Source of the DNA: Terribacillus aidingensis | GTDB lineage: Bacteria; Bacillota; Bacilli; Bacillales; Amphibacillaceae | DNA: 64,000 nt | Reading direction: 5' to 3' | Assembly (NCBI RefSeq): GCF_040703035.1 | Contig: NZ_CP159996.1 | Span: forward strand, 158,001 to 222,000 | Part shown: positions 23,142-40,466 of the stretch, in pieces | Numbering within the stretch: the stretch's first letter is position 1 | Layout: every line of letters starts with the position of its first letter | Program-made: the position numbers and the translations under genes | Notes under the pieces: model-generated | Told to the model about the DNA's origin: nothing | The model's database searches: none | What the model saw: the letters and a program-made list of their open reading frames with translations, nothing else

Positions 23142-23447
23142 ATGAACAGAAAAGTTGTAGTGAACGGTATGGAACTGGCTGCTTATGATTATGAACATAA
23201 ATATGTCACGAAAAACGGGAAGGAATTGAACGAAATCAGCTTCAAGTTCCCAGTGACAAGTGAAGCTTACCATGATGTGGCTGTTATGCTGTATAAAGAT
23301 GATTTCCAAGTGGAGGTTCCGGAAGAAAACATTGCTTTCGAAGCAGCAATCAAACAGTACAGCACAAGTATCACGAATCTGTATGAGAAAGAACAGGTAG
23401 GCGAATATTCCCTCGTGCTGGAGGAGAAGGCAGGAGCTGCGCTATGA
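23142..23447 (+). CDS. DUF3219 family protein (YkvR-like)
   Basis: The 101-residue protein, starting MNRKVVVNGMELAAYDYEH and containing the FKFPVTSEAYHDVAVMLY block, matches the DUF3219 family known from Bacillus (YkvR). It has a small beta-rich pattern and no known activity. AAAGGAGAG precedes the ATG. It overlaps the glycerate kinase gene by four bases. Confidence 0.75.
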   Translation: MNRKVVVNGMELAAYDYEHKYVTKNGKELNEISFKFPVTSEAYHDVAVMLYKDDFQVEVPEENIAFEAAIKQYSTSITNLYEKEQVGEYSLVLEEKAGAAL

Positions 23448-24583
23448 AGATTGTCGTAGCTCCTGACTCCTTTAAGGAGAGCATGACAGCATTGGAAGCG
23501 GCGTCTGCTTGCGAGCGGGGAATCCGCCGGGCAATTCCGGATGCAGAAGTCGTAAAGGTTCCGATGGCTGATGGCGGTGAAGGGACTGTGCAATCATTAG
23601 TGGATGCGACGGGCGGGAGGCTGCATACCTGTGAAGTAACAGGACCGCTTGGAAATAAGGTAAGTGCGGTATTTGGTATGCTTGGTGGTGGAAAAACGGC
23701 TGTTATCGAAATGGCTGAGGCATCGGGTCTCCATCTTGTCCCGCGTGACAAGCGGGATCCGCTCCGTGCTACAACGCGCGGAACAGGCGAATTGATGATG
23801 AAAGCATTAGATGCAGGAGCAGAGCATTTGATTATCGGTCTTGGCGGCAGTGCAACGAATGATGGCGGCGCAGGGATGGCTGCTGCTCTGGGAGTGAAAT
23901 TCCTGGATGCAGAGGGGAAGCAGCTGGAAGATGGTGCACTTGCGTTGAAAGAGCTCTCCGAAGTGAAAGCAGAAGGACTAGATCCACGCTGGCAGCATGT
24001 TCAAGTGGAAGTAGCCTGCGATGTGGAAAACCCGCTGACGGGTGAAAATGGCGCATCCTTTGTGTTCGGACCACAAAAAGGTGCAAACGACGAAATGGTC
24101 ATTCAACTGGATGACATACTCACACATTACGCTGCAAAAGTGGAACAGACTGTCGGTAAGCAGATTGACCAGCTGCCAGGTGCAGGAGCTGCAGGTGGAT
24201 TAGGAGCCGGATTAGTGGCTTTTATGCCAGCAGAACTGAAAAGTGGCATCACCATTGTGAAGGAAGCAGCAGGGCTGGCAGATCATATCAAGGGTGCAGA
24301 TTTGGTTATTACAGGCGAAGGGAAAATCGATGGCCAGACGATTTACGGAAAGACACCGATCGGGGTAGCCAAATCAGCGAAACAATTCGGAGTGCCAGTC
24401 ATCGCCATCGCCGGAAATGTAGGGGAAGGAAGCGACGCAGTCTATGCACATGGTATAGATGCTGTGTTCAGTATCATGCCAGGTGTAATGAACTTGTCAG
24501 ATGCACTTTCCAATGGGGAAACAAATATTGAACAGACTGTCTACAATATCTGTAAAACGATGCAAATTTCCCGGTCATTCTAA
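23444..24583 (+). CDS. glxK: glycerate kinase, GlxK family
   Basis: The 379-residue kinase phosphorylates D-glycerate. The N-terminal KIVVAPDSFKESM with MADGGEGTVQSL, the GLGGSATNDGGAGMAAALG block (glycine-rich phosphate loop) and the C-terminal GEGKIDGQTIYGKTPIGVA are diagnostic of the GlxK/GarK type-2 family. Translation is coupled to the DUF3219 gene (ATGA). Product phosphoglycerate enters glycolysis. No pathway partner lies nearby. Confidence 0.95.
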   Translation: MKIVVAPDSFKESMTALEAASACERGIRRAIPDAEVVKVPMADGGEGTVQSLVDATGGRLHTCEVTGPLGNKVSAVFGMLGGGKTAVIEMAEASGLHLVPRDKRDPLRATTRGTGELMMKALDAGAEHLIIGLGGSATNDGGAGMAAALGVKFLDAEGKQLEDGALALKELSEVKAEGLDPRWQHVQVEVACDVENPLTGENGASFVFGPQKGANDEMVIQLDDILTHYAAKVEQTVGKQIDQLPGAGAAGGLGAGLVAFMPAELKSGITIVKEAAGLADHIKGADLVITGEGKIDGQTIYGKTPIGVAKSAKQFGVPVIAIAGNVGEGSDAVYAHGIDAVFSIMPGVMNLSDALSNGETNIEQTVYNICKTMQISRSF

Positions 24584-24735
24584 AAGAAATCTTTCCTTGG
24601 AAAACTAGATATGAAAGATACCTTTCTTTATGTATAAAACTTCACAAATTGGTCACACTGTTATGTGTAAGCGGTTACTTTATAGCGTATACTAACAGTA
24701 TAAAGTGGAGGGTATACAGAAAGGAGAGGCTGAGA

Positions 24736-31157: not shown

Positions 31158-31197
31158 AAAGGCCGGGATGCCTCTTATGCATCCCGGCCTTTTTTTA
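31158..31197 (+). terminator. rho-independent terminator
   Basis: AGGCCGGGATGC and GCATCCCGGCCT pair around CTCTTAT, followed by eight T. Confidence 0.93.
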
Positions 31198-31217: not shown

Positions 31218-32000
31218 ATGATCAGACTTTATGAAAATAAGCATCAGGAAAAGAATGAGGTTGCCAGGCATCAGCATGACACCCATCAGCTGCTTTATGT
31301 CCTGGATGGCGAAGGGAAATGTGAATTGGATACTAGGAGCCAGAAGCTGCATCGTGACAGCATCGTGCTAATCTCTCCTCATACAGAGCATGCGATCCAA
31401 GCTCATTCGAAGATGACGGTGCTCGTATTGGAATTCGATATCCGTCAATTAACGGACGATGTCGTTTCTTATCTCGTTGAACCAGTATTCACAGTATCGC
31501 GTGTCTTGAACCTATCTCTTTTCGAAAGCAGTGAGATCCGTCAGCTGCTGCGGAAGATGCTATTCGAACAATCACAGAACCACCCGATTCATGCGATGGG
31601 GCTGAAGCTCATGCTTGCTCAAGTACTTTACCAGCTTGCAATCATGCAGCAGGAAGATACGACACAGGATACAAATACGAGACGTGCAAGGTGGCTCAAG
31701 CATCACCTGGAAACACGATATTTTGAGATTGCCAGTATGGAAGAAGTTGCAGCCAAAGCTGGTGTAAGCAGCCGTTATATGAATCAGATATTTAAAGAAA
31801 TGTATGATACGACTCCTTATCAGTTCCTGACGGAGGTAAGGCTGCTTAAGGTGAAGAAAATGCTGCGTGAGTCCGATAGGGAAATTGTTTCCATCTGCTT
31901 CGAAGTTGGGTTTGAAGCTGTCTCGACATTTTATCGTGTCTTTAAAAAATATGTCGGTGTAACGCCGAATGTCTATCGGCGCACAACAGATGATTTCTGA
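31218..32000 (+). CDS. AraC family transcriptional regulator
   Basis: The 260-residue protein has an N-terminal cupin-type ligand domain (H-Q-H-D-T-H-Q-L-L-Y-V-L-D-G-E-G) and a C-terminal AraC double helix-turn-helix (about 160-260; VAAKAGVSSRYMNQIFKEM and ICFEVGFEAVSTFYRVFKKYVGVTP). The cupin domain is expected to bind a small sugar-like effector. GGAGG lies 14 bases before the ATG. It is followed 87 bases later by the oxidoreductase operon in the same direction, so it is the probable local activator. Confidence 0.9.
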   Translation: MIRLYENKHQEKNEVARHQHDTHQLLYVLDGEGKCELDTRSQKLHRDSIVLISPHTEHAIQAHSKMTVLVLEFDIRQLTDDVVSYLVEPVFTVSRVLNLSLFESSEIRQLLRKMLFEQSQNHPIHAMGLKLMLAQVLYQLAIMQQEDTTQDTNTRRARWLKHHLETRYFEIASMEEVAAKAGVSSRYMNQIFKEMYDTTPYQFLTEVRLLKVKKMLRESDREIVSICFEVGFEAVSTFYRVFKKYVGVTPNVYRRTTDDF

Positions 32001-32034
32001 AATTGAGAATATCAGAAAAGAATGATAAGAAAAA

Positions 32035-32048
32035 TGTAAACGCTTTAC
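32035..32048 (+). promoter_or_regulatory. cre-like CcpA site
   Basis: TGTAAACGCTTTAC matches 12 of 14 positions of TGWAANCGNTNWCA, 39 bases before the first operon gene. Catabolite repression is expected. Confidence 0.65.
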
Positions 32049-32086
32049 TTATACTATCCTTAATATGGATAATGGGAGGCGTAAGT

Positions 32087-33238
32087 ATGGCGACGAAGAA
32101 AATTGGGATAATCATGAACGGTGTAACAGGAAGAATGGGAACAAATCAGCATCTTATCAGGTCCATTGCGGCAATCCGCGCAGAAGGCGGTGTGCTGCTT
32201 TCGAACGGAGACCGTCTGCTGCCGGATCCGATTCTTGTCGGACGGAATGAAGAAAAGCTTGCGAAGCTTGCCCAGGAAAATAGTGTAGAGCGCTACAGTA
32301 CTGATTTGGAAGCGGCTTTGGCCGATGACTATAACCTGATTTATTTTGATTCGCAAACGACGAATCGAAGGGAAGCAAGTATCAAGCAGGCAATTGAAGC
32401 AGGTAAGCATATTTATTGTGAGAAGCCGACTGCTACAAGCTTAGAGGGTTCCTTGGAACTGGCTAGATTGGCACGGGAGGCTGGTGTGAAAAACGGGGTC
32501 GTGCAAGATAAGCTTTTCTTACCAGGATTGCTGAAGCTGAAGCATTTGATCGACAGCGATTACTTCGGAGAAATTCTATCCGTAAAACTGGATTTTGGCT
32601 ATTGGGTATTCGAAGGCGATTGGCAGGAAGCGCAGCGCCCGAGCTGGAATTACCGAGCGGAGGACGGTGGCGGCATCATTGTTGATATGTTTGCACACTG
32701 GCGTTATGTCATCGATCATCTTTTCGGGGAAATCGACAGCCTGACTTGTCTTGGAGCAACTCATATCCCGTACCGGGTGGATGAAGCAGGCAATCGCTAC
32801 AAAGCGACAGCTGATGATGCGGCATATGCCATTTTTGCCCTTAAAAACGGGATAGTGGTACAGGCAAACTCCTCTTGGACGACTAGAGTCGACCGAGATG
32901 ATCTGGTTACCTTCCAAGTGGATGGGACGTTGGGAAGCGCGGTGGCTGGTCTTAGGGATTGCAAGGTACAGCATCGTGTCACCACACCGAAGCCAGTGTG
33001 GAATCCGGATATCCCTAATGCAATTGATTTCCGTTCCCAGTGGGAGACATTGCCGGAGAATCGTTCGTATGACAATGGATTCAAAATTCAATGGGAACTA
33101 TTTTTAAAGCATGTGGAAGAAGCTGCAGCGTTTCCGTGGGACTTGCTGGAGGGCGCGAAAGGTACCCAGCTGTCAGATTTGGGGCTGGAAGCATGGCGTG
33201 AGAAGAAGTGGGTCTCTGTTCCGAGTCTGGAAGTATAA
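32087..33238 (+). CDS. Gfo/Idh/MocA family oxidoreductase
   Basis: The 383-residue protein has an N-terminal NAD(P)-binding Rossmann part (MNGVTGRMG, an unusual DapB-like GxxGRMG loop), the family C-E-K-P motif at about residue 108-111 and the C-terminal domain with the D-M-F-A-H-W-R-Y-V-I-D-H-L-F-G helix (conserved H). Such enzymes oxidise or reduce a sugar hydroxyl or ketone with a Lys-His pair. GGGAGG before the ATG at 32087 sets the start; an earlier ATG at 32003 has none. It opens the five-gene catabolic run. Confidence 0.88.
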   Translation: MATKKIGIIMNGVTGRMGTNQHLIRSIAAIRAEGGVLLSNGDRLLPDPILVGRNEEKLAKLAQENSVERYSTDLEAALADDYNLIYFDSQTTNRREASIKQAIEAGKHIYCEKPTATSLEGSLELARLAREAGVKNGVVQDKLFLPGLLKLKHLIDSDYFGEILSVKLDFGYWVFEGDWQEAQRPSWNYRAEDGGGIIVDMFAHWRYVIDHLFGEIDSLTCLGATHIPYRVDEAGNRYKATADDAAYAIFALKNGIVVQANSSWTTRVDRDDLVTFQVDGTLGSAVAGLRDCKVQHRVTTPKPVWNPDIPNAIDFRSQWETLPENRSYDNGFKIQWELFLKHVEEAAAFPWDLLEGAKGTQLSDLGLEAWREKKWVSVPSLEV

Positions 33239-33251
33239 AGGAGGAAGCAGT

Positions 33252-34427
33252 ATGACAACGATACTTTTACCAACGCAAGGTCGTTCATTGGAGGCGTACA
33301 CACTAGTCCATTCAGCTTCAACCTATCCGATAGAAGGAGCTTTCCGGACAAGGACAGCCTATTCTGCTGCTCACGTTGTTGCGGATGCACAATCTGAAGC
33401 ACATCCTATCTTAGGAGGGGCAATTGATTGGGAGGCAACATTGAATTATCGGAAAGCATTGTGGAAGCTTGGTTTCGGTGTGGCAGAGGCAATGGATACG
33501 GCACAGCGAGGCATGGGACTCACATATGAGATGGCAAAGGAACTGATTTCTATAAGTGCAGAGGAAGCGAAAAAAGAGAATGTGTTGCTCGCTTCTGGTG
33601 CAGGGACGGATCATTTGCCGGCTGACAGTTCGTTTACGACGTCAGAGATTAAGCAGGCTTACGAAGAGCAGTGCGCATTCGTCGAAGGTACCGGAAGCCG
33701 GATCATCCTGATGGCAAGCCGTGCGCTGGCTGCTAGTGCACGATCGGCAGCGGATTACAAGGATGTGTACGGGCATGTGCTTAGCGGAGTAAAAAAGCCG
33801 GTTATCCTCCATTGGCTCGGGCCAATGTTTGACCCAAAATTGACTGGCTACTGGGGATCGGAAACGATCAGCCGTGCGATGGACGACTGTCTGGAACTGA
33901 TCCATCAGTATGAAGGGAAGATCGACGGTATTAAGATTTCTCTACTCGATAAGGACAAGGAAATCGAAATGAGAGCGAAGCTTCCTGCTTCGGTTCGGAT
34001 GTATACAGGAGATGATTTTAATTACCCAGAGCTGATCCAAGGTGATGGAGAGCAGTACAGCCATGCGTTGCTCGGTATCTTTGATGCAATTGCACCAGCT
34101 GCTTCCGAGGCGCTGCGAGCACTTGATGCAGAAGATCTTGACCGATACCGGAAAATCTTCGATAAGACAGTGCCGCTTTCCAGGCACATCTTTGAGACAC
34201 CAACGTACGCCTACAAAACAGGCGTTGTTTTCCTGGCATATTTGAATGGGTATCAATCACATTTCCGGATGATCGGCGGTGCAGAAGGAGCTCGGTCGGT
34301 TCTTCATTTGAGTGAGCTATTCAGACTGGCTGATCAAGCGGGAGTCCTCGTGGACCCGGCACTTGCAGCAGAACGGATGCAGCTCGTACTGAAGCTGGCT
34401 GGTATCGAACAGAAGGTAATGTCATGA
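33252..34427 (+). CDS. DUF993 family protein (DapA-like TIM barrel)
   Basis: The 391-residue protein matches the DUF993 family, distantly related to dihydrodipicolinate synthase. The GIKISLLDK block (about residue 225-233) contains a lysine placed like the Schiff-base lysine of DapA-type lyases, and LHWLGPMFDP and RMYTGDDFNYPELIQG follow the barrel strand order. An aldolase or lyase reaction on a keto sugar is inferred. GGAGGAAG precedes the ATG. It overlaps the isomerase gene by four bases. Confidence 0.78.
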   Translation: MTTILLPTQGRSLEAYTLVHSASTYPIEGAFRTRTAYSAAHVVADAQSEAHPILGGAIDWEATLNYRKALWKLGFGVAEAMDTAQRGMGLTYEMAKELISISAEEAKKENVLLASGAGTDHLPADSSFTTSEIKQAYEEQCAFVEGTGSRIILMASRALAASARSAADYKDVYGHVLSGVKKPVILHWLGPMFDPKLTGYWGSETISRAMDDCLELIHQYEGKIDGIKISLLDKDKEIEMRAKLPASVRMYTGDDFNYPELIQGDGEQYSHALLGIFDAIAPAASEALRALDAEDLDRYRKIFDKTVPLSRHIFETPTYAYKTGVVFLAYLNGYQSHFRMIGGAEGARSVLHLSELFRLADQAGVLVDPALAAERMQLVLKLAGIEQKVMS

Positions 34428-35242
34428 CAAAAGCGGATCTGCAGCTTCTCAGTCTCAATCAGATTACGACAGAAAACTGGTCGCTGACCGAAGCAATCCA
34501 AGGCTGCGCCCGTCATGATATTCATTGGATATCCATATGGAGGCATAAGCTGGAAGAAATCGGTGTAAAAGAAGCGAAAAAATTGTTAACGGAATACGGC
34601 CTTCAAGTCTCAAGTCTTTGCCGTGGCGGCATGTTTCCGGCAGCTACAGAGCGGGAGAGGCAGCAGCGAATAGATGATAACAAACGGGCAATAGAAGATG
34701 CGAAGGCATTGGGGACAGATGTGCTGGTGCTTGTATGTGGTCCGGCTTCGGATAAAGATATCGCCAAGGCTCGTCATTGGGTGGAGGCAGGGATAGAAGC
34801 AATCCTTCCATATGCGGAGGATCTAGGTGTAAAGCTTGGCATTGAGCCGCTTCATCCGATGTATGCAGCAGATCGTTCTGTCATCAATACATTGGGGCAG
34901 GCCAACACTCTGGCAGAGAAGCTGCAATCCGAGCATCTTGGAGTTGTGGTAGATGCCTTCCACGTATGGTGGGATCCAGAGCTGCGTCACCAGATTGATC
35001 GGGCTAAGGGTAAGATACTCGGCTTCCATGTATCAGATTGGAAGGTGCCGATGAAGGATATGTTCAAAGGGCGAGCCATGATGGGCGAAGGCGTCATCAA
35101 TTTACGCGAGATGCGCAGCATGGTGGAGGAAGCAGGCTATCAGGGCCCGATCGAAGTAGAGATCATCAATCAGGAGATTTGGGATCAGCCAGGCGATGAG
35201 GTGCTTCATCAAATGAAGCGCTGCTACCAGGAACATGTATAA
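34424..35242 (+). CDS. sugar phosphate isomerase/epimerase-like TIM barrel
   Basis: The 272-residue protein belongs to the xylose-isomerase-like TIM-barrel (AP_endonuc_2) superfamily: LSLNQITTENW, ISIWRHKL, LGIEPLHPMY (metal Glu), GVVVDAFHVWWDPE (metal Asp/His), GFHVSDWK and IEVEIIN (metal Glu) form the divalent metal site. Members isomerise or epimerise sugars, or beta-eliminate from 3-keto glycosides. It overlaps DUF993 by ATGA, so translation is coupled. Confidence 0.88.
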   Translation: MTKADLQLLSLNQITTENWSLTEAIQGCARHDIHWISIWRHKLEEIGVKEAKKLLTEYGLQVSSLCRGGMFPAATERERQQRIDDNKRAIEDAKALGTDVLVLVCGPASDKDIAKARHWVEAGIEAILPYAEDLGVKLGIEPLHPMYAADRSVINTLGQANTLAEKLQSEHLGVVVDAFHVWWDPELRHQIDRAKGKILGFHVSDWKVPMKDMFKGRAMMGEGVINLREMRSMVEEAGYQGPIEVEIINQEIWDQPGDEVLHQMKRCYQEHV

Positions 35243-35257
35243 AAGGAGAGCTGATAA

Positions 35258-36352
35258 ATGGCACTGCTGAATCAATTGGAGGAGCTAGCTCAAGAAGCTG
35301 CAATAGCTGCTGACACTCAGACAACAGCACCTTTCATTTTTTCTGCTGCGGGTCTGGATCATCCGCATATTTACGGTATGGTGCAAGGTCTCCTGGATGC
35401 TGGGGCACAGCTTATGCACATCTATGATCGAAATACAAATCAGGCAAATGCCCTTCAACAAAGATTTCGAACAGGAGAAGTCGTCTCAGAGCTGTCCCAA
35501 ATCCTGCATAGCGAGGTTGATTTGATAGTAACAAGCATTGTGCCATCCGTGCGCGGGGCTTTAGGCATTCAAGTATTGGAGCACAACAAGCATTTTCTTT
35601 CCGCAAAGGCGCCTTTTACGACAATGGCTCAATTGCATGCGGCAGAGGAAGCGGTGCGCCGTACAGGGAAAAAATGGGCGGTGTTTTATAGTGAGCGATT
35701 GGCTGTAGAGGCAGCCCTGCTGGCAGATAACATTATACAAGAGGGGCTGATCGGTGATTTATTCCAGCTTACTGGTTCAGGGCCTCACCGACTCCAGGCA
35801 GACACAAGGCCGGATTGGTTTTTCGATCCGCAGAAAAATGGCGGTATTTTATGTGACATCGGCAGCCATCAAATTGAGCAGCTGCTTCATTATACGAGAA
35901 GTAAAGAAGCTGAGGTACTGCATAGCAAGGTGGCGAACTATGCTCATCCGCAATATGGTTTCTGGCAGGATTTCGGTGACGCAACACTTGTTACTAACAC
36001 AGGAGTCAGCCAATATTTCCGTGTCGATTGGTTCACGCCCGATGGACTTCGGGTCTGGGGAGACGGACGAACGGTGCTGCACGGCACAAACGGGTATGTG
36101 GAACTGCGAAAATACACGGATGTGGCACGCTCGGCAGAAGGAGAACATCTGTATGTGGTGACGGATCGGGAGGAAGTTTATTTCTCAGCTAAGGGAAAGG
36201 TAGGATTTCCGTATTTCAGACAATTGATTACTGATTGTCAGCAGGGAACGGAAACAGCGATGAGTCAGGAGCATACATTCCAGGCAGCGGCTCTGGCTAT
36301 CCAAGCACAGGAGCAGGCAATCAGCCTGACAAAGGTGGGGGAAAAGCAATGA
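35258..36352 (+). CDS. Gfo/Idh/MocA oxidoreductase with degenerate motifs
   Basis: The 364-residue protein has the Gfo/Idh/MocA two-domain pattern, ending with a CDIGSHQIEQLLHYTRS helix with the conserved His. The usual E-K-P motif is replaced (SAKAPF), and the Rossmann loop is GLDHPHIYG instead of GxGxxG. So cofactor binding or chemistry may differ from its two neighbours. AAAAGGAGAG precedes the ATG. It overlaps the next oxidoreductase by four bases. Confidence 0.82.
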   Translation: MALLNQLEELAQEAAIAADTQTTAPFIFSAAGLDHPHIYGMVQGLLDAGAQLMHIYDRNTNQANALQQRFRTGEVVSELSQILHSEVDLIVTSIVPSVRGALGIQVLEHNKHFLSAKAPFTTMAQLHAAEEAVRRTGKKWAVFYSERLAVEAALLADNIIQEGLIGDLFQLTGSGPHRLQADTRPDWFFDPQKNGGILCDIGSHQIEQLLHYTRSKEAEVLHSKVANYAHPQYGFWQDFGDATLVTNTGVSQYFRVDWFTPDGLRVWGDGRTVLHGTNGYVELRKYTDVARSAEGEHLYVVTDREEVYFSAKGKVGFPYFRQLITDCQQGTETAMSQEHTFQAAALAIQAQEQAISLTKVGEKQ

Positions 36353-37539
36353 AGCATGCAGTCGTTTTAATCGGAATGAATGGATATGGGGAGCATTACT
36401 TGGATGCATTGCTGAAGCGGGAGGACATCACATTCGCCGGAATCGTGGAAATCTATCCAGAAAGAAGCAGTCTGTTGGAAAAAGTAAAGCAGCGTGGGAT
36501 TCCGATATTTTCGGCGGTGGACGCTTTCTATCAATACAACCGAGCAGATTTAGCCATCATTGCCACCCCTATTCATCTGCACACAGAGCAAGCACTATAT
36601 GCGCTTCAACATGGCTCAAATGTTCTTTGTGAAAAGCCGATTTTTGCCGATATGCGGGATCAATTGAAGTGGGATCAAGCAATCTCTGAATCCGGAAAGT
36701 GGGCTGCCATTGGCTTCAACTGGTCGTTTACTGCTCCAATCTTGGAGCTTAAGGAAGATATCCAGAAAGGACTCTATGGAAAGCCGAAGCAGCTGAAAAC
36801 ATTGGTGCTGTGGCCGCGGAATGAAGCATACTTTTCCCGTTCGGCTTGGTCGGGTAAACTGATGGCGCCGGATGGACGGCAAATTCGCGATAGTGTAGCC
36901 AATAATGCCGCTGCTCACTTCATCCATAATATGCTTTACATGCTCGGGCATGAGCTCAAGGAAACGGTGCATATCAAACGTCTGGAAGCTGAGTTGTATC
37001 GAGCCAATGATATCGAAACCTTTGATACATGTGCCATTCGCATGCATGCGGAATCTGGGTGTGAGCTGCTCTTTTATGGATCGCATGCAACAGCAACAGA
37101 GCAAGGCCCCCAATTCTTGTACACTTTTGAAAAAGGCTATATCGTATATGATTGCAATCTCGATCAAGGCATCATCACAGCGTATACAGAGGATGGTCAG
37201 GAAAGAATCTATGGAAATCCGCAGACCAATCATCTGGATAAATTGGATTATTGCATCGCTGCACTTACAGATGGAAGGGATATTCCGTGCACATATGAAA
37301 CAGCGCTTGGCCACGCATCGATTATTGAGGCACTGCACCAGAATATTGCGGCTGGGCAGCCTTTCCCTAAAGAAGCAATCAAACAGACAGCGGGCAATCT
37401 TAGAACCGTTATCGATTTAGAGCAGACGATGAATGCATGTTTTATGAGTGGTAAACTGCCTTATGAATTACAGATACCTTGGAGCAAACCAGCTAAACAG
37501 GCTGATGTGATCCTGACACTTCAGAAGGGGAGCGTCTGA
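36349..37539 (+). CDS. Gfo/Idh/MocA family oxidoreductase
   Basis: The 396-residue protein has VVLIGMNGYGEHYLD (Rossmann loop), ADLAIIATPIHLHTEQ, the CEKPIFAD motif and a C-terminal domain with AAAHFIHNMLYMLG as the His helix. It is the third such enzyme in the operon. GTGGGGG lies before the ATG at 36349, which overlaps the previous stop; longer upstream frames overlap that gene. A cre-like site follows it, before the TRAP genes. Confidence 0.85.
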   Translation: MKHAVVLIGMNGYGEHYLDALLKREDITFAGIVEIYPERSSLLEKVKQRGIPIFSAVDAFYQYNRADLAIIATPIHLHTEQALYALQHGSNVLCEKPIFADMRDQLKWDQAISESGKWAAIGFNWSFTAPILELKEDIQKGLYGKPKQLKTLVLWPRNEAYFSRSAWSGKLMAPDGRQIRDSVANNAAAHFIHNMLYMLGHELKETVHIKRLEAELYRANDIETFDTCAIRMHAESGCELLFYGSHATATEQGPQFLYTFEKGYIVYDCNLDQGIITAYTEDGQERIYGNPQTNHLDKLDYCIAALTDGRDIPCTYETALGHASIIEALHQNIAAGQPFPKEAIKQTAGNLRTVIDLEQTMNACFMSGKLPYELQIPWSKPAKQADVILTLQKGSV

Positions 37540-37564
37540 TCACGCCCAGTCGAATGCTGATATT

Positions 37565-37578
37565 TGTAAGCGCTTTAT
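37565..37578 (+). promoter_or_regulatory. cre-like CcpA site before the TRAP genes
   Basis: TGTAAGCGCTTTAT matches the cre consensus core (TGTAAGCGCT) 23 bases before the dctP start. It suggests separate catabolite control of the transporter genes. Confidence 0.6.
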
Positions 37579-37600
37579 AATACCTTGTGGAGGGTGAAAC

Positions 37601-38611
37601 ATGAATCGAGCGAAAACGACGTGGCTAATTCTTTCTGTTTTGCTGCTTGGAATAGTTGTGCTGATGGTTGTCGCTCCTGCTACAGATGCTGCAGGTCAGG
37701 AGGCGAGGAAGCTGACGATGGGGCACATCCATAACCCGAATAGTCCGGTTTATGCGAGTCTGGAGGAATTCAGCGGGGAGCTTGAGAAGCGTACTGACGG
37801 TGTGCTGACAACGGATATTTATACCGAAGGCGGTCTTGGTGACGAGAGGGTAATGCTGGAGCTTGTCCAGAATGGAGTAGTCGACATGGCTAAAGTAAAT
37901 GGCGGTGTACTGGAGAGCTTCTATTCCGATTTCTCCGTCTTCAGTTTGCCTTATGTATTTGAGGATGAAGAGCATTTTAAACGAGTTATGGTGTCCGATA
38001 TTGTAAAAGACCTTTATGAAGAACTGGAATCCATTGGTCTGCATGGTATCGCTTATTACGATGCGGGGGCAAGGAGTTTCTATACAGCAGACACGCCGAT
38101 TCAGAAGCCAGAAGACCTACATGGACTGAAAATACGTACGATGACGAATACAACATCAATCCGGACGATGGAGCTGCTTGGAGCTTCCCCTACACCGCTT
38201 CCTGCGCCGGAAGTATATACAGGGCTGCAGCAAGGTGTGATAGACGGAGCGGAGAGCAGTCCGATTGCCCTTACGGATGCGAACCATGGCGAGGTAGCCA
38301 AATACTTTTCTTACGACGAACATACGCGAATTCCTGATTTCCTCATTATGAGTGAGAAGACGTGGAATAGTCTGAGCCCGGAGCAGCAGCAGGCAGTCGA
38401 GGAATCAGCAGCGATCTCTTCGGAAAATCATAATGCGCGCTGGGACCAGCTAATCGAAGAAAGCATCAAGAAAGCAGAGGATGAGATGGGTGTTACCTTC
38501 AATGAGCTTGATCAGGAGCCATTCAAGGAACTGGTGCAGCCGCTGATCGAAGAAAGGCGGGAAGATCCGGAAATAGCGAAAGTGCTGGATGACATCGCGG
38601 CGTTACAGTAA
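37601..38611 (+). CDS. TRAP transporter substrate-binding protein DctP
   Basis: The 336-residue protein has an N-terminal signal or anchor (residues 5-30) and DctP blocks: GHIHNPNSPVY, IYTEGGLGDERVMLELVQNG, FSLPYVFEDEEHF, IAYYDAGARSFYT, LHGLKIRTMTN (Arg that binds the carboxylate), PEVYTGLQQGVIDGAE and the D-F-L-I-M-S-E-K-T-W tail. The YDAGARSFY block is seen in acid-sugar (uronate-type) TRAP receptors as I recall them. No lipobox Cys was seen after the signal. GTGGAGGGTG precedes the ATG. Confidence 0.92.
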   Translation: MNRAKTTWLILSVLLLGIVVLMVVAPATDAAGQEARKLTMGHIHNPNSPVYASLEEFSGELEKRTDGVLTTDIYTEGGLGDERVMLELVQNGVVDMAKVNGGVLESFYSDFSVFSLPYVFEDEEHFKRVMVSDIVKDLYEELESIGLHGIAYYDAGARSFYTADTPIQKPEDLHGLKIRTMTNTTSIRTMELLGASPTPLPAPEVYTGLQQGVIDGAESSPIALTDANHGEVAKYFSYDEHTRIPDFLIMSEKTWNSLSPEQQQAVEESAAISSENHNARWDQLIEESIKKAEDEMGVTFNELDQEPFKELVQPLIEERREDPEIAKVLDDIAALQ

Positions 38612-38631
38612 ACGAAAAGGAGCTGAACGAG

Positions 38632-39123
38632 GTGGAAAAAGTACGGAATTGGGTTGATAGATGCATTTTGCTCGTGACGTGTACGCTGACGGTCTTCTTA
38701 GTCGCAGGTGCAATATGGCAGGTATTCACTCGATTTGTCCTGCAAAATCCGAGCGTGTTCACAGAAGAGGTGCTTCGGTTTTCCTTCATCTGGGTCGGGT
38801 TGCTTGGAGCCAGTTATGCTTTCGGAGTGAAAGAACATATCGCGCTGACGTTCCTAATGTCCAAATGGAAACATGCAAAGGACAAAAAAGCTGCCGAGTT
38901 GATCATAGAAGTGACGGTGCTGGTGTTTATGGTAGTTGTCTTTATTATCGGCGGGACACAGCTGATGCTTGCCTCGATGACACAGACTTCACCAGTCCTT
39001 GGTCTCCCGATGGGCTACGTATATGCTGCACTGCCGCTGTCTGGCTTGCTGAGTGTTTACTATATAGTCACGAATCGATTAATGGCACGCAAGGAAGCCG
39101 CTAGAGGGAGGGACGCAGCATGA
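38632..39123 (+). CDS. TRAP transporter small permease DctQ
   Basis: The 163-residue protein has four hydrophobic helices and the DctQ pattern W-Q-V-F-T-R-F ... TEEVLRFSFIWVGLLGASYA. It starts at GTG 38632 with AAAGGAG nine bases before it. It overlaps the DctM gene by four bases. It forms the membrane complex with the large permease. Confidence 0.92.
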   Translation: MEKVRNWVDRCILLVTCTLTVFLVAGAIWQVFTRFVLQNPSVFTEEVLRFSFIWVGLLGASYAFGVKEHIALTFLMSKWKHAKDKKAAELIIEVTVLVFMVVVFIIGGTQLMLASMTQTSPVLGLPMGYVYAALPLSGLLSVYYIVTNRLMARKEAARGRDAA

Positions 39124-40430
39124 CGAGTGTCGTTCTTGCAGGTATCGTCTTATTCGGGTTGTTTTTTCTCTTGATTTTCTTCGGTGTTCCGATTGCAATC
39201 AGCATTGGCTTGTCGTCGTTGGCAGCTGGAGCCATGCTGCTGCCATTTGATGAGATTTTAATGGTCGTTTCACAGCAGTTTGTCGCTGGTATCGATAGCT
39301 TTGTCTTGTTATCCCTTGTCTTCTTTACATTGGCTGGAAGTATCATGAATACGGGCGGAATCGCTTTGCGTTTGATCAATTTGGCCAAACTTTTGGCGGG
39401 GCGCCTTCCAGGTTCCTTGGCTCACACAAACGTCATCGGAAACACTCTTTTCGGAGCCTTATCTGGTTCTGCTATTGCATCAGCTGCAACGATGGGGAAA
39501 ATCATGGCACCTATGCAGAAGAAAGAAGGCTATGATCCATCTTATTCTGCAGCAGTCAACGTAGCTTCTGCACCGGCTGGTTTGATCATTCCGCCAAGCG
39601 GTACGCCAATTTTATACTCTGTTCTAAGTGGTGGTACGTCGATTGGCGCACTGTTCATTGCGGGTTATTTGCCTGGTATTTTGATGTCTGTTCTGATTAT
39701 GGTAACGGCTTACATAGTTGCAAAAAGACAGGGATATACGGTATCTGAACCAATCCGCTTCTCTCAGGCTGCCAAAGTTATCCTGGATGCTATCCCGAGT
39801 TTGATGCTGATTGTGGTCGTCATCGGAGGAATTTCTTTTGGGGTCTTTACGGCTACAGAGGGAGCGGCTGTAGCAATCCTGTACGCTCTGGTGCTTAGCA
39901 TGATCTATCGCAGTCTGAAATGGAAGGATATCCCGGTGATTCTTCGTGATACAGTCATGTTCTCCGGCGTCATCCTTCTGTTAATTGGAGCCTCAGGGGC
40001 TATGTCTTGGATTCTATCATACTCCAAGCTGCCGCAGATGCTTTCATCTGGGATACTTGATTTCAGTGGTAATGCAGCCGTGCTGATGCTGATTATTGTT
40101 CTGATTCTATTGCTTGTCGGCACTTTTATGGATATCGCTCCTGCATTGCTGATTTTCACACCCATCCTGCTGCCTGTTGCTCTGGAATTCGGTGTGGATC
40201 CAGTCCATTTTGGGACAATTATGTCGATGGGACTTGCTATCGGTACAATTACACCACCGGTGGGAACGGTACTCTTTATTGGATCCAAGGTTGGCAATGT
40301 TACTGTGGAACAAATGACAAAACCATTACTGCTGTTCTACATTCCTGTGTTCGTTGCTTTCCTTGCAGTAGCTTATATTCCGGCACTGAGTCTATGGCTG
40401 CCTGAGCTTATGGGTGTACTCAATAAATAA
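39120..40430 (+). CDS. TRAP transporter large permease DctM
   Basis: The 436-residue protein has about twelve hydrophobic segments and DctM blocks: F-G-V-P-I-A-I-S-I-G, LLSLVFFTLAGSIMNTGGIALRL, LFGALSGSAIASAATMG, ASAPAGLIIPPSGTPILY and ITPPVGTVLFIG. Na+-driven uptake is the family mechanism. Start overlaps DctQ (ATGA). It closes the operon in front of a strong terminator. Confidence 0.95.
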   Translation: MTSVVLAGIVLFGLFFLLIFFGVPIAISIGLSSLAAGAMLLPFDEILMVVSQQFVAGIDSFVLLSLVFFTLAGSIMNTGGIALRLINLAKLLAGRLPGSLAHTNVIGNTLFGALSGSAIASAATMGKIMAPMQKKEGYDPSYSAAVNVASAPAGLIIPPSGTPILYSVLSGGTSIGALFIAGYLPGILMSVLIMVTAYIVAKRQGYTVSEPIRFSQAAKVILDAIPSLMLIVVVIGGISFGVFTATEGAAVAILYALVLSMIYRSLKWKDIPVILRDTVMFSGVILLLIGASGAMSWILSYSKLPQMLSSGILDFSGNAAVLMLIIVLILLLVGTFMDIAPALLIFTPILLPVALEFGVDPVHFGTIMSMGLAIGTITPPVGTVLFIGSKVGNVTVEQMTKPLLLFYIPVFVAFLAVAYIPALSLWLPELMGVLNK

Positions 40431-40431
40431 G

Positions 40432-40466
40432 AAACAGGCCTTCTCGCAGGAAGGCCTGTTTTTTCG
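40432..40466. terminator. bidirectional terminator after TRAP genes
   Basis: AAACAGGCCTT and AAGGCCTGTTT pair around eight bases, then TTT. The minus-strand gene at 40468 ends directly beside it. Confidence 0.93.

Follow-up and report, generated by a model that had tools for sequence, protein, structure and literature searches.

The closest described relatives of the locus analysed here are pathways that oxidise a sugar before breaking one of its bonds. In Bacillus smithii, LgdA, LgdB1, LgdB2 and LgdC convert levoglucosan to glucose by oxidation, beta-elimination, hydration and reduction (PMC7676230), and a flavonoid-glucoside pathway of Agrobacterium has been described with the same plan, its hydration and reduction steps being given on preliminary evidence (PMC10628242). 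Our locus occupies positions 31218-40430 of a 64,000-nucleotide stretch of Terribacillus aidingensis DNA (contig NZ_CP159996.1, positions 158,001 to 222,000 of the forward strand), which we call the window; the host genome comprises one contig, 3.58 Mb long. It encodes GfoA, an NAD(P)-dependent dehydrogenase of the Gfo/Idh/MocA type, a protein of the family DUF993, and XI, a xylose-isomerase-like TIM barrel, together with a regulator, two further oxidoreductases and a tripartite ATP-independent periplasmic (TRAP) transporter. The locus probably encodes a variant of these oxidise-then-cleave sugar pathways, resting on an uncharacterised and probably Schiff-base enzyme family.

The levoglucosan pathway (LgdA-LgdB1-LgdB2-LgdC; PMC7676230, PMC10066097) shares with our locus the oxidation by a Gfo/Idh/MocA enzyme, a sugar-isomerase-type barrel, a Gfo reductase and a clustered transporter. 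It differs in that the B. smithii set has two sugar-isomerase-type barrels and an ATP-binding cassette (ABC) transporter, whereas here there is one barrel of family PF01261, plus DUF993 and TRAP. The Agrobacterium pathway (GlycDH/AtOGE/AtHYD/Gfo) and the PUE C-glycoside pathway (PMC10628242) share the sequence of oxidation, elimination, hydration and reduction, a metal-dependent TIM barrel eliminase and a Gfo reductase. The Agrobacterium glucoside pathway differs in starting with a flavin dehydrogenase and in having two sugar-isomerase barrels, and the word dihydrodipicolinate is absent from the main text of that paper. An earlier note on this DNA knew of no named pathway with exactly this gene set, and none was found in the open-licence literature, which leaves most subscription papers outside; within the same scope nothing was found on DUF993 or PF06187.

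The locus consists of nine colinear genes on the + strand. The gene content given in the earlier note (AraC, three Gfo, DUF993, XI and DctPQM) is confirmed for each gene by Pfam, and so is the tight packing: from GfoA onwards, neighbours overlap or are separated by gaps of at most 61 bp. The first of the three core enzymes, GfoA (32087-33238), matches PF01408 at 40.6 bits against a cut-off of 24; its open reading frame (ORF) opens at TTG 32003, and GGGAGG precedes the ATG at 32087. The second is the DUF993 protein (33252-34427), a full-length match to PF06187 with an E-value of 6e-176, and the third is XI (34424-35242; PF01261, E 5.5e-40). Chance can be excluded as the origin of this gene set, because the identical gene order is found again in other genera.

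Genome contigs were scanned for DUF993, giving at least 584 confirmed stretches. The best 80 were kept, so that the sample leans towards close relatives of the DUF993 in the window. A separate set consists of 15 plasmid regions, taken from the 17 rows with an annotated match among 60 listed records of the 147 plasmid records with DUF993. Apart from these plasmid regions, the comparison covers 99 loci (numbered, like the plasmid ones, with the prefix L below), 96 of them distinct after three duplicates were dropped; they are not independent, 18 being titled Bradyrhizobium. Judged by contig title, the best 80 stretches span seven phyla, namely Bacillota, Pseudomonadota, Chloroflexota, Gemmatimonadota, Acidobacteriota, Actinomycetota and Deinococcota. 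DUF993 is present in all 10 genomes of the window's genus that were searched, two of them of T. aidingensis itself, and in 20 of 199 genomes sampled from the order Bacillales.

Within 7.5 kb of DUF993, GfoA is found in 91 of the 96 loci, XI in 90, and both in 89, while the corresponding figures for the 15 plasmid loci are 11, 14 and 11. These linkage counts were made by tblastn; the tallies of gene clusters used a crude choice of non-overlapping ORFs, and the partner counts do not rest on them. Five loci have no GfoA (L025, L056, L093, L114 and L097), and four of these show another oxidoreductase: other Gfo proteins and a zinc alcohol dehydrogenase in L025 and L056, a pyrroloquinoline quinone (PQQ) dehydrogenase with a cytochrome c in L093, and an isocitrate-type dehydrogenase with a glucose-methanol-choline (GMC) oxidoreductase in L114. 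Contig ends cut the exceptions L097 and L101 on the relevant side, L097 ending 1.2 kb upstream. A gene annotated as a 3-ketoacyl-ACP (acyl carrier protein) reductase stands in place of GfoA in 3 of the 15 plasmid loci.

The remainder of the operon is far less constant. Close homologues of DctP and DctM occur together in 9 of the 96 loci, and 13 have some homologue of DctM, close or not; GfoB and GfoC are both present in 10, GfoC in 18, and the full set seen in the window in five (L027, L034, L039, L040 and L090). The earlier note had treated the whole operon as the unit, which is not borne out: the conserved unit is GfoA-DUF993-XI, and TRAP, GfoB and GfoC are local add-ons. The genome-neighbourhood check that it proposed, for DUF993 beside TRAP genes, does find the combination in those 9 loci, which are a minority. 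On the DUF993 tree, from which 7 of 112 rows were excluded for stops or for the shortness of their match and which was taken without its branch support values, TRAP-bearing loci fall into at least three separate Bacillales groups, and TRAP has therefore joined or been lost several times. The other transporters by the core are of the NMT1-type ABC (23/96), TctA tripartite tricarboxylate (8/96) and major facilitator superfamily (MFS; 6/96) kinds, and there are also sugar ABC systems. Proteobacterial cores are often partnered by a protein of the enolase superfamily (30/96), an identity which comes from the plasmid annotation of homologues, the copy tested having no match in Pfam, NCBIfam or the PDB. 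It is worth mentioning that the DUF993 of one locus titled Frankia sp. RB7 (L069) groups with those of Bradyrhizobium in the tree, and that the enolase-type gene of this locus is 81% identical to a Bradyrhizobium one; this contig is probably mislabelled or contaminated.

The best single clue that DUF993 uses the product of GfoA comes from L051 and L098, two Gemmatimonadetes contigs in which both proteins are encoded by a single open reading frame, the linkers being about 24 and 49 residues long; DUF993 would therefore act next after the oxidation. Both contigs are metagenome assemblies and are sisters on the DUF993 tree, so that the fusion may represent one event.

The predicted structure of DUF993 is confident, with a predicted local distance difference test (pLDDT) score of 91.8. 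Its nearest Foldseek match is 4dnh, the hypothetical protein SMc04132 (TM 0.94), followed by dihydrodipicolinate synthases (DHDPS) and sialic acid lyases with TM values of up to 0.83 on target length; the match to 7loy (TM 0.83 on target length, E 5.5e-11) places the model among the DHDPS-type TIM barrels. A simple profile search with the DUF993 alignment against the PDB gave 4dnh as its sole significant match, and HHalign of 35 DUF993 against 18 DHDPS-family proteins gave an E-value of 3e-6. In this alignment K228 of DUF993 falls on the Schiff-base lysine of the DHDPS family (VKEAS), and the TGDD that follows it falls on SGDD. Asp82-Thr83-Ala84 lies on Gly-Thr-Thr, so that Thr83 is the first threonine, kept, and Ala84 stands on the second threonine of GTTGE; His187 is on the catalytic tyrosine, and Leu197, placed after a 5-residue gap, is on the arginine of IPGR. 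K228, A84, H187 and L197 are all invariant across the 35-row DUF993 alignment. In DHDPS numbering and roles, we take the residues replaced by Ala84, His187 and Leu197 to be Thr45, Tyr133 and Arg138.

One of the four residues of the keto-acid site (the two threonines, the tyrosine and the arginine of IPGR) is thus kept by DUF993. With Ala84, Leu197 and His187 at these positions, an ordinary keto-acid substrate is argued against. It is probable, as judged by alignment, that DUF993 kept the covalent Schiff-base chemistry and largely lost the keto-acid pocket. With the DHDPS/N-acetylneuraminate lyase (NAL) superfamily (PF00701) it shares the TIM barrel, the Schiff-base lysine, the TGDD after the lysine and the first threonine, and it differs in having about 90 extra residues and PF06187 as its sole Pfam match.

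The other two core enzymes also have well-matched solved relatives. For GfoA the best is 3oqb (E 1.4e-165), and K113, D200 and H204 are invariant with 83 homologues. For XI it is 7vpf (E 4e-115), with further matches to 3ju2 (SMc04130) and 3qc0; E141, D177, H180, R217 and E244 are invariant with 82 homologues, and H202 is nearly so. We assign these XI residues to the metal site and the proton shuttle that characterise the epimerase branch, and XI is probably metal-dependent, with the full epimerase-type metal site kept. All the solved homologues (3oqb, 4dnh, 3ju2, 3qc0 and 7vpf) carry generic names only (oxidoreductase, uncharacterized protein, sugar isomerase, Xylose isomerase), and SMc04130, SMc04132 and SMc04133 (a putative oxidoreductase) have near-consecutive locus tags. 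A literature search for the SMc tags, 4DNH and 7VPF brought up no named substrate in the text covered. Each core protein thus has a solved but generically named homologue, and the linkage joins several orphan structures into one hypothesis.

We tentatively propose, as a possibility that falls somewhat short of an even chance, that the locus is an AraC-controlled, catabolite-repressed operon which imports an acidic sugar or glycoside and then oxidises, eliminates, hydrates and reduces it. DctPQM would bring in the substrate, and GfoA with NAD(P)+ would oxidise one secondary hydroxyl, probably at C3 of the sugar ring. DUF993 would take the resulting ketone directly, forming an iminium at Lys228, with His187 abstracting the neighbouring proton, and would expel a beta-positioned leaving group by breaking a glycosidic or ring-substituent C-O bond. 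XI would then hydrate or isomerise the unsaturated keto-sugar at its metal, and GfoB or GfoC would reduce the keto-sugar to a common sugar, a step that GfoA might perform in reverse in loci that have neither. The constancy of the core, while transporters and neighbours vary, fits a deglycosylating core serving different leaving groups. The general form of the earlier suggestion, a carbohydrate route that starts with oxidation and includes an isomerising or lysing barrel, is supported.

The broader claim, that DUF993 founds a new class of DHDPS-fold Schiff-base lyases or hydratases of keto-sugars, and that with GfoA and XI it forms an undescribed oxidative sugar or glycoside core which many bacterial phyla combine with five or more types of transporter and with varied downstream genes, seems to us close to evenly balanced. 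If it is true, a Schiff-base route would be added to the eliminations known so far for keto-glycosides, which depend on a metal, and the annotation of many bacteria would be helped, given the numbers of genomic stretches and plasmid records noted above.

As to what is imported, all three parts of the TRAP transporter are present and far over the Pfam cut-offs: the solute receptor DctP (37601-38611; PF03480, E 2e-78), the small permease DctQ (38632-39123; PF04290) and the large permease DctM (39120-40430; PF06808, E 5e-108). According to a review, D-glucuronate and D-galacturonate are among newly found TRAP ligands (PMC5812351). The nearest solved chain to DctP is 4n91 (E 3.6e-63), and 4ovr and 4n8y are also close. 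The block YDAGARSFYT, which the earlier note had compared with acid-sugar receptors, is present as given there; the corresponding blocks of the five closest TRAP receptors of known structure resemble it without being identical to it. We take 4n91, 4ovr, 4n8y and their relatives to be uronate-bound, an assumption which the entry titles do not confirm, and to that extent the assignment as an acid-sugar-type receptor is supported. DctP has ESS where five aligned relatives have ENN, with the GARSFYT block similar, and an identical ligand is therefore not to be assumed. The structure model of DctP is poor (pLDDT 51.4, built from four sequences). Its N-terminus (37601-37710) has no lipobox cysteine, which some relatives do have (L025, L033 and L035); in a presumed Gram-positive, the receptor may therefore be anchored by an uncleaved N-terminal helix.

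Neighbouring genes in Bacillales include a polysaccharide lyase 8 with a glycoside hydrolase 43 (GH43) in L050 and an alpha-L-rhamnosidase in L044. DUF2264 proteins, presumably of a glucuronidase-like family (GH154), an identity on which we do not lean, lie near the core in 5 of the 96 loci, four of them Bacillales, and a fusion of an aldolase with a short-chain dehydrogenase, presumably a rhamnose enzyme, lies beside the core in L045 and L090. Taken without a control set, these genes point weakly to plant or algal acidic glycans, and we infer the substrate class no further than an acidic sugar or glycoside.

Several observations weigh against the proposed sequence of oxidation, elimination, hydration and reduction. 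Most loci have no GfoB or GfoC homologue (GfoC 18/96, other Gfo genes not being counted), and a separate reductase may be missing in many of them. L055 has GfoA and DUF993 with no XI within its 16.4 kb. Plasmid locus L127 contains DUF993 but no XI match and no GfoA match above 61 bits, and its DUF993 adjoins a glycerate kinase and a CoA-transferase. In L025 and L056, DUF993 is found with neither GfoA nor XI, among genes for CoA-transferase (III), acyl-CoA dehydrogenase and TRAP, to which L056 adds an enoyl-CoA hydratase and L025 electron-transfer flavoprotein genes; the plasmid sets of 3-ketoacyl-ACP reductase, DUF993 and XI (three plasmids) are also near CoA-transferase genes. Either the substrate is a different one in these contexts, or the core enzymes catalyse a wider reaction than the one we propose. 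HHalign assigns a moderate probability (76-88%), and the placing of Leu197 depends on crossing the gap. DUF993 also retains Thr83, and the keto-acid site is for this reason only partly lost. Finally, glycerate kinase genes are enriched around the core, and cleavage into C3 units would account for this no less well than the proposed scheme.

This last point belongs to the main rival, which we consider unlikely while giving it more weight than any other alternative: that DUF993 is a class I retro-aldolase. GfoA would then make a keto-sugar acid, DUF993 would split a C-C bond, XI would isomerise one fragment, and the C3 piece would go to glycerate. The DHDPS/NAL fold with its Schiff-base lysine and one threonine kept favours this reading, but the alignment removes the second threonine, the arginine and the catalytic tyrosine of the family from its pocket. 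The scheme requires no reductase, in agreement with the many loci that have none of the GfoC type. Glycerate kinase genes occur at a distance of 10.5 kb or less in 8 of the 96 loci (one of them, L040, of the window's genus) and in 6 of the 15 hand-picked plasmid loci, two of which are similar Paracoccus plasmids. For the MOFRL type by itself, 8 occurrences (2 + 6) compare with an expectation of about 0.3, which we estimated from a density of about 0.11 per Mb, 15 copies having been counted in 19 genomes that total about 131 Mb. A D-2-hydroxyacid dehydrogenase of the hydroxypyruvate-reductase class is found in 9 of the 96 loci, and aldehyde dehydrogenase and glycolate-oxidase-type genes adjoin the core in L023. 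Nevertheless, loci with a glycerate kinase are a minority, the copy in the window itself (23444-24583) does not belong to the operon, and no downstream gene is constant in the tabulated loci.

The remaining alternatives are much weaker. A cyclitol route, with GfoA as an inositol-type dehydrogenase, XI as a keto-inositol dehydratase or isomerase and DUF993 as a ring-opening lyase, is improbable. The superfamilies are shared with IolG and with IolE/IolI, and XI has a distant match to IolI (1i60, E 3e-10), but the listed Iol equivalogs score far below their cut-offs, and no annotated neighbour is assigned to IolB, IolC or IolD, for which no separate search was made. Classical inositol catabolism can be set aside on the IolG equivalog (TIGR04380, cut-off 355), which gives 45.5 bits for GfoA, 34.5 for GfoB and 57.8 for GfoC; the likeness to inositol-type routes drawn in the earlier note is weak on these scores. 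It is slightly less probable still that the operon replaces the UxaC pathway for free glucuronate or galacturonate. The host genome has no match to UxaC, and DctP is nearest to receptors that we assume to bind uronates; however, UxaC is present in 14 of the 20 Bacillales genomes that carry DUF993, and in 4 of the 6 other genomes tested that have the triad plus TRAP (G176, G186, G196 and G160; it is absent from G013 and G075). Since the two coexist in most Bacillales carriers, a substitute for UxaC is judged unlikely, and so are free uronates as the only role. Least probable of all, to the point of being hardly credible, is a rearranged form of the known levoglucosan pathway. Levoglucosan dehydrogenase is indeed the best NCBIfam match of GfoA (E 3e-15), but the LgdA equivalog (NF052479) has a cut-off of 650 and gives 55.8, 36.2 and 29.6 bits for GfoA, GfoB and GfoC. 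The pathway needs two PF01261-type barrels (LgdB1 and LgdB2), of which the operon has one, DUF993 matching PF06187 instead, and the transporter is TRAP, not ABC.

The accessory oxidoreductases of the operon are GfoB (35258-36352; PF01408, 29.9 bits, cut-off 24) and GfoC (about 36343-37539, in an ORF that opens at TTG 36235; PF01408, 57.9 bits, cut-off 24). The weakest Pfam assignment in the locus belongs to GfoC, where the C-terminal domain PF22725 reaches 22.9 bits and stays under its cut-off of 27. The first gene (31218-32000) encodes an AraC-family protein, with Pfam HTH_18 and AraC_binding over cut-off, which is the likely activator of the operon; an AraC-type gene lies within 7.5 kb of DUF993 in 33 of the 96 loci.

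Sites resembling the catabolite-responsive element (cre) of CcpA are found on the + strand before GfoA (TGTAAACGCTTTAC, 32035-32048) and before DctP (TGTAAGCGCTTTAT, 37565-37578), each with 12 of 14 positions in agreement with a consensus of 14 bases entered by hand. The earlier report of cre-like sites thus stands, although a stricter 15-base pattern with zero mismatches allowed matched neither of them. Taking the best score in each 230-bp piece, 12/14 or more is reached by 9 of 13 GfoA upstream regions, 8 of 9 DctP upstream regions and 0 of 11 AraC upstream regions (the window being included and the loci related), compared to 79 of 2000 pieces of this length drawn at random from the window. 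Because the sites recur before the same genes in relatives, catabolite repression of both the enzyme part and the transporter part is likely. The site on the GfoA side overlaps a promoter-like -35 element at 32044, part of a match at 32044-32073 that scores 9/12; the region has 17 such matches in total, against 13.1 in shuffles. Terminator-like inverted repeats close the operon (40432-40461, 12 pairs) and separate the AraC gene from the gene upstream (31158-31192, 14 pairs, the longest there); the region has 11 terminator-like matches in total, where shuffled sequence gave 8.4.

Outside the operon, the glycerate kinase gene of the window (PF02595) lies about 8.7 kb upstream of DUF993 with unrelated genes between, and just 3' of it are two further cre-like sites, at 24666 and 24743, with two mismatches each. 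Elsewhere in the same genome, one locus (L136; G000:C1:1171000-1188000) carries a UxuA mannonate dehydratase, a D-mannonate oxidoreductase, an aldolase of the 2-keto-3-deoxy-6-phosphogluconate (KDPG) type and a galactonate-type MFS carrier; as the genome has no UxaC, this branch probably serves aldonates. Another (L137; G000:C1:2468000-2484000) has a second TRAP receptor with an FCD/GntR regulator, another Gfo/Idh/MocA protein and a PF01261 barrel, along with a citryl-CoA-lyase-like protein, an aldehyde dehydrogenase and a thiamine pyrophosphate (TPP) enzyme, a different set that is reminiscent of inositol routes.

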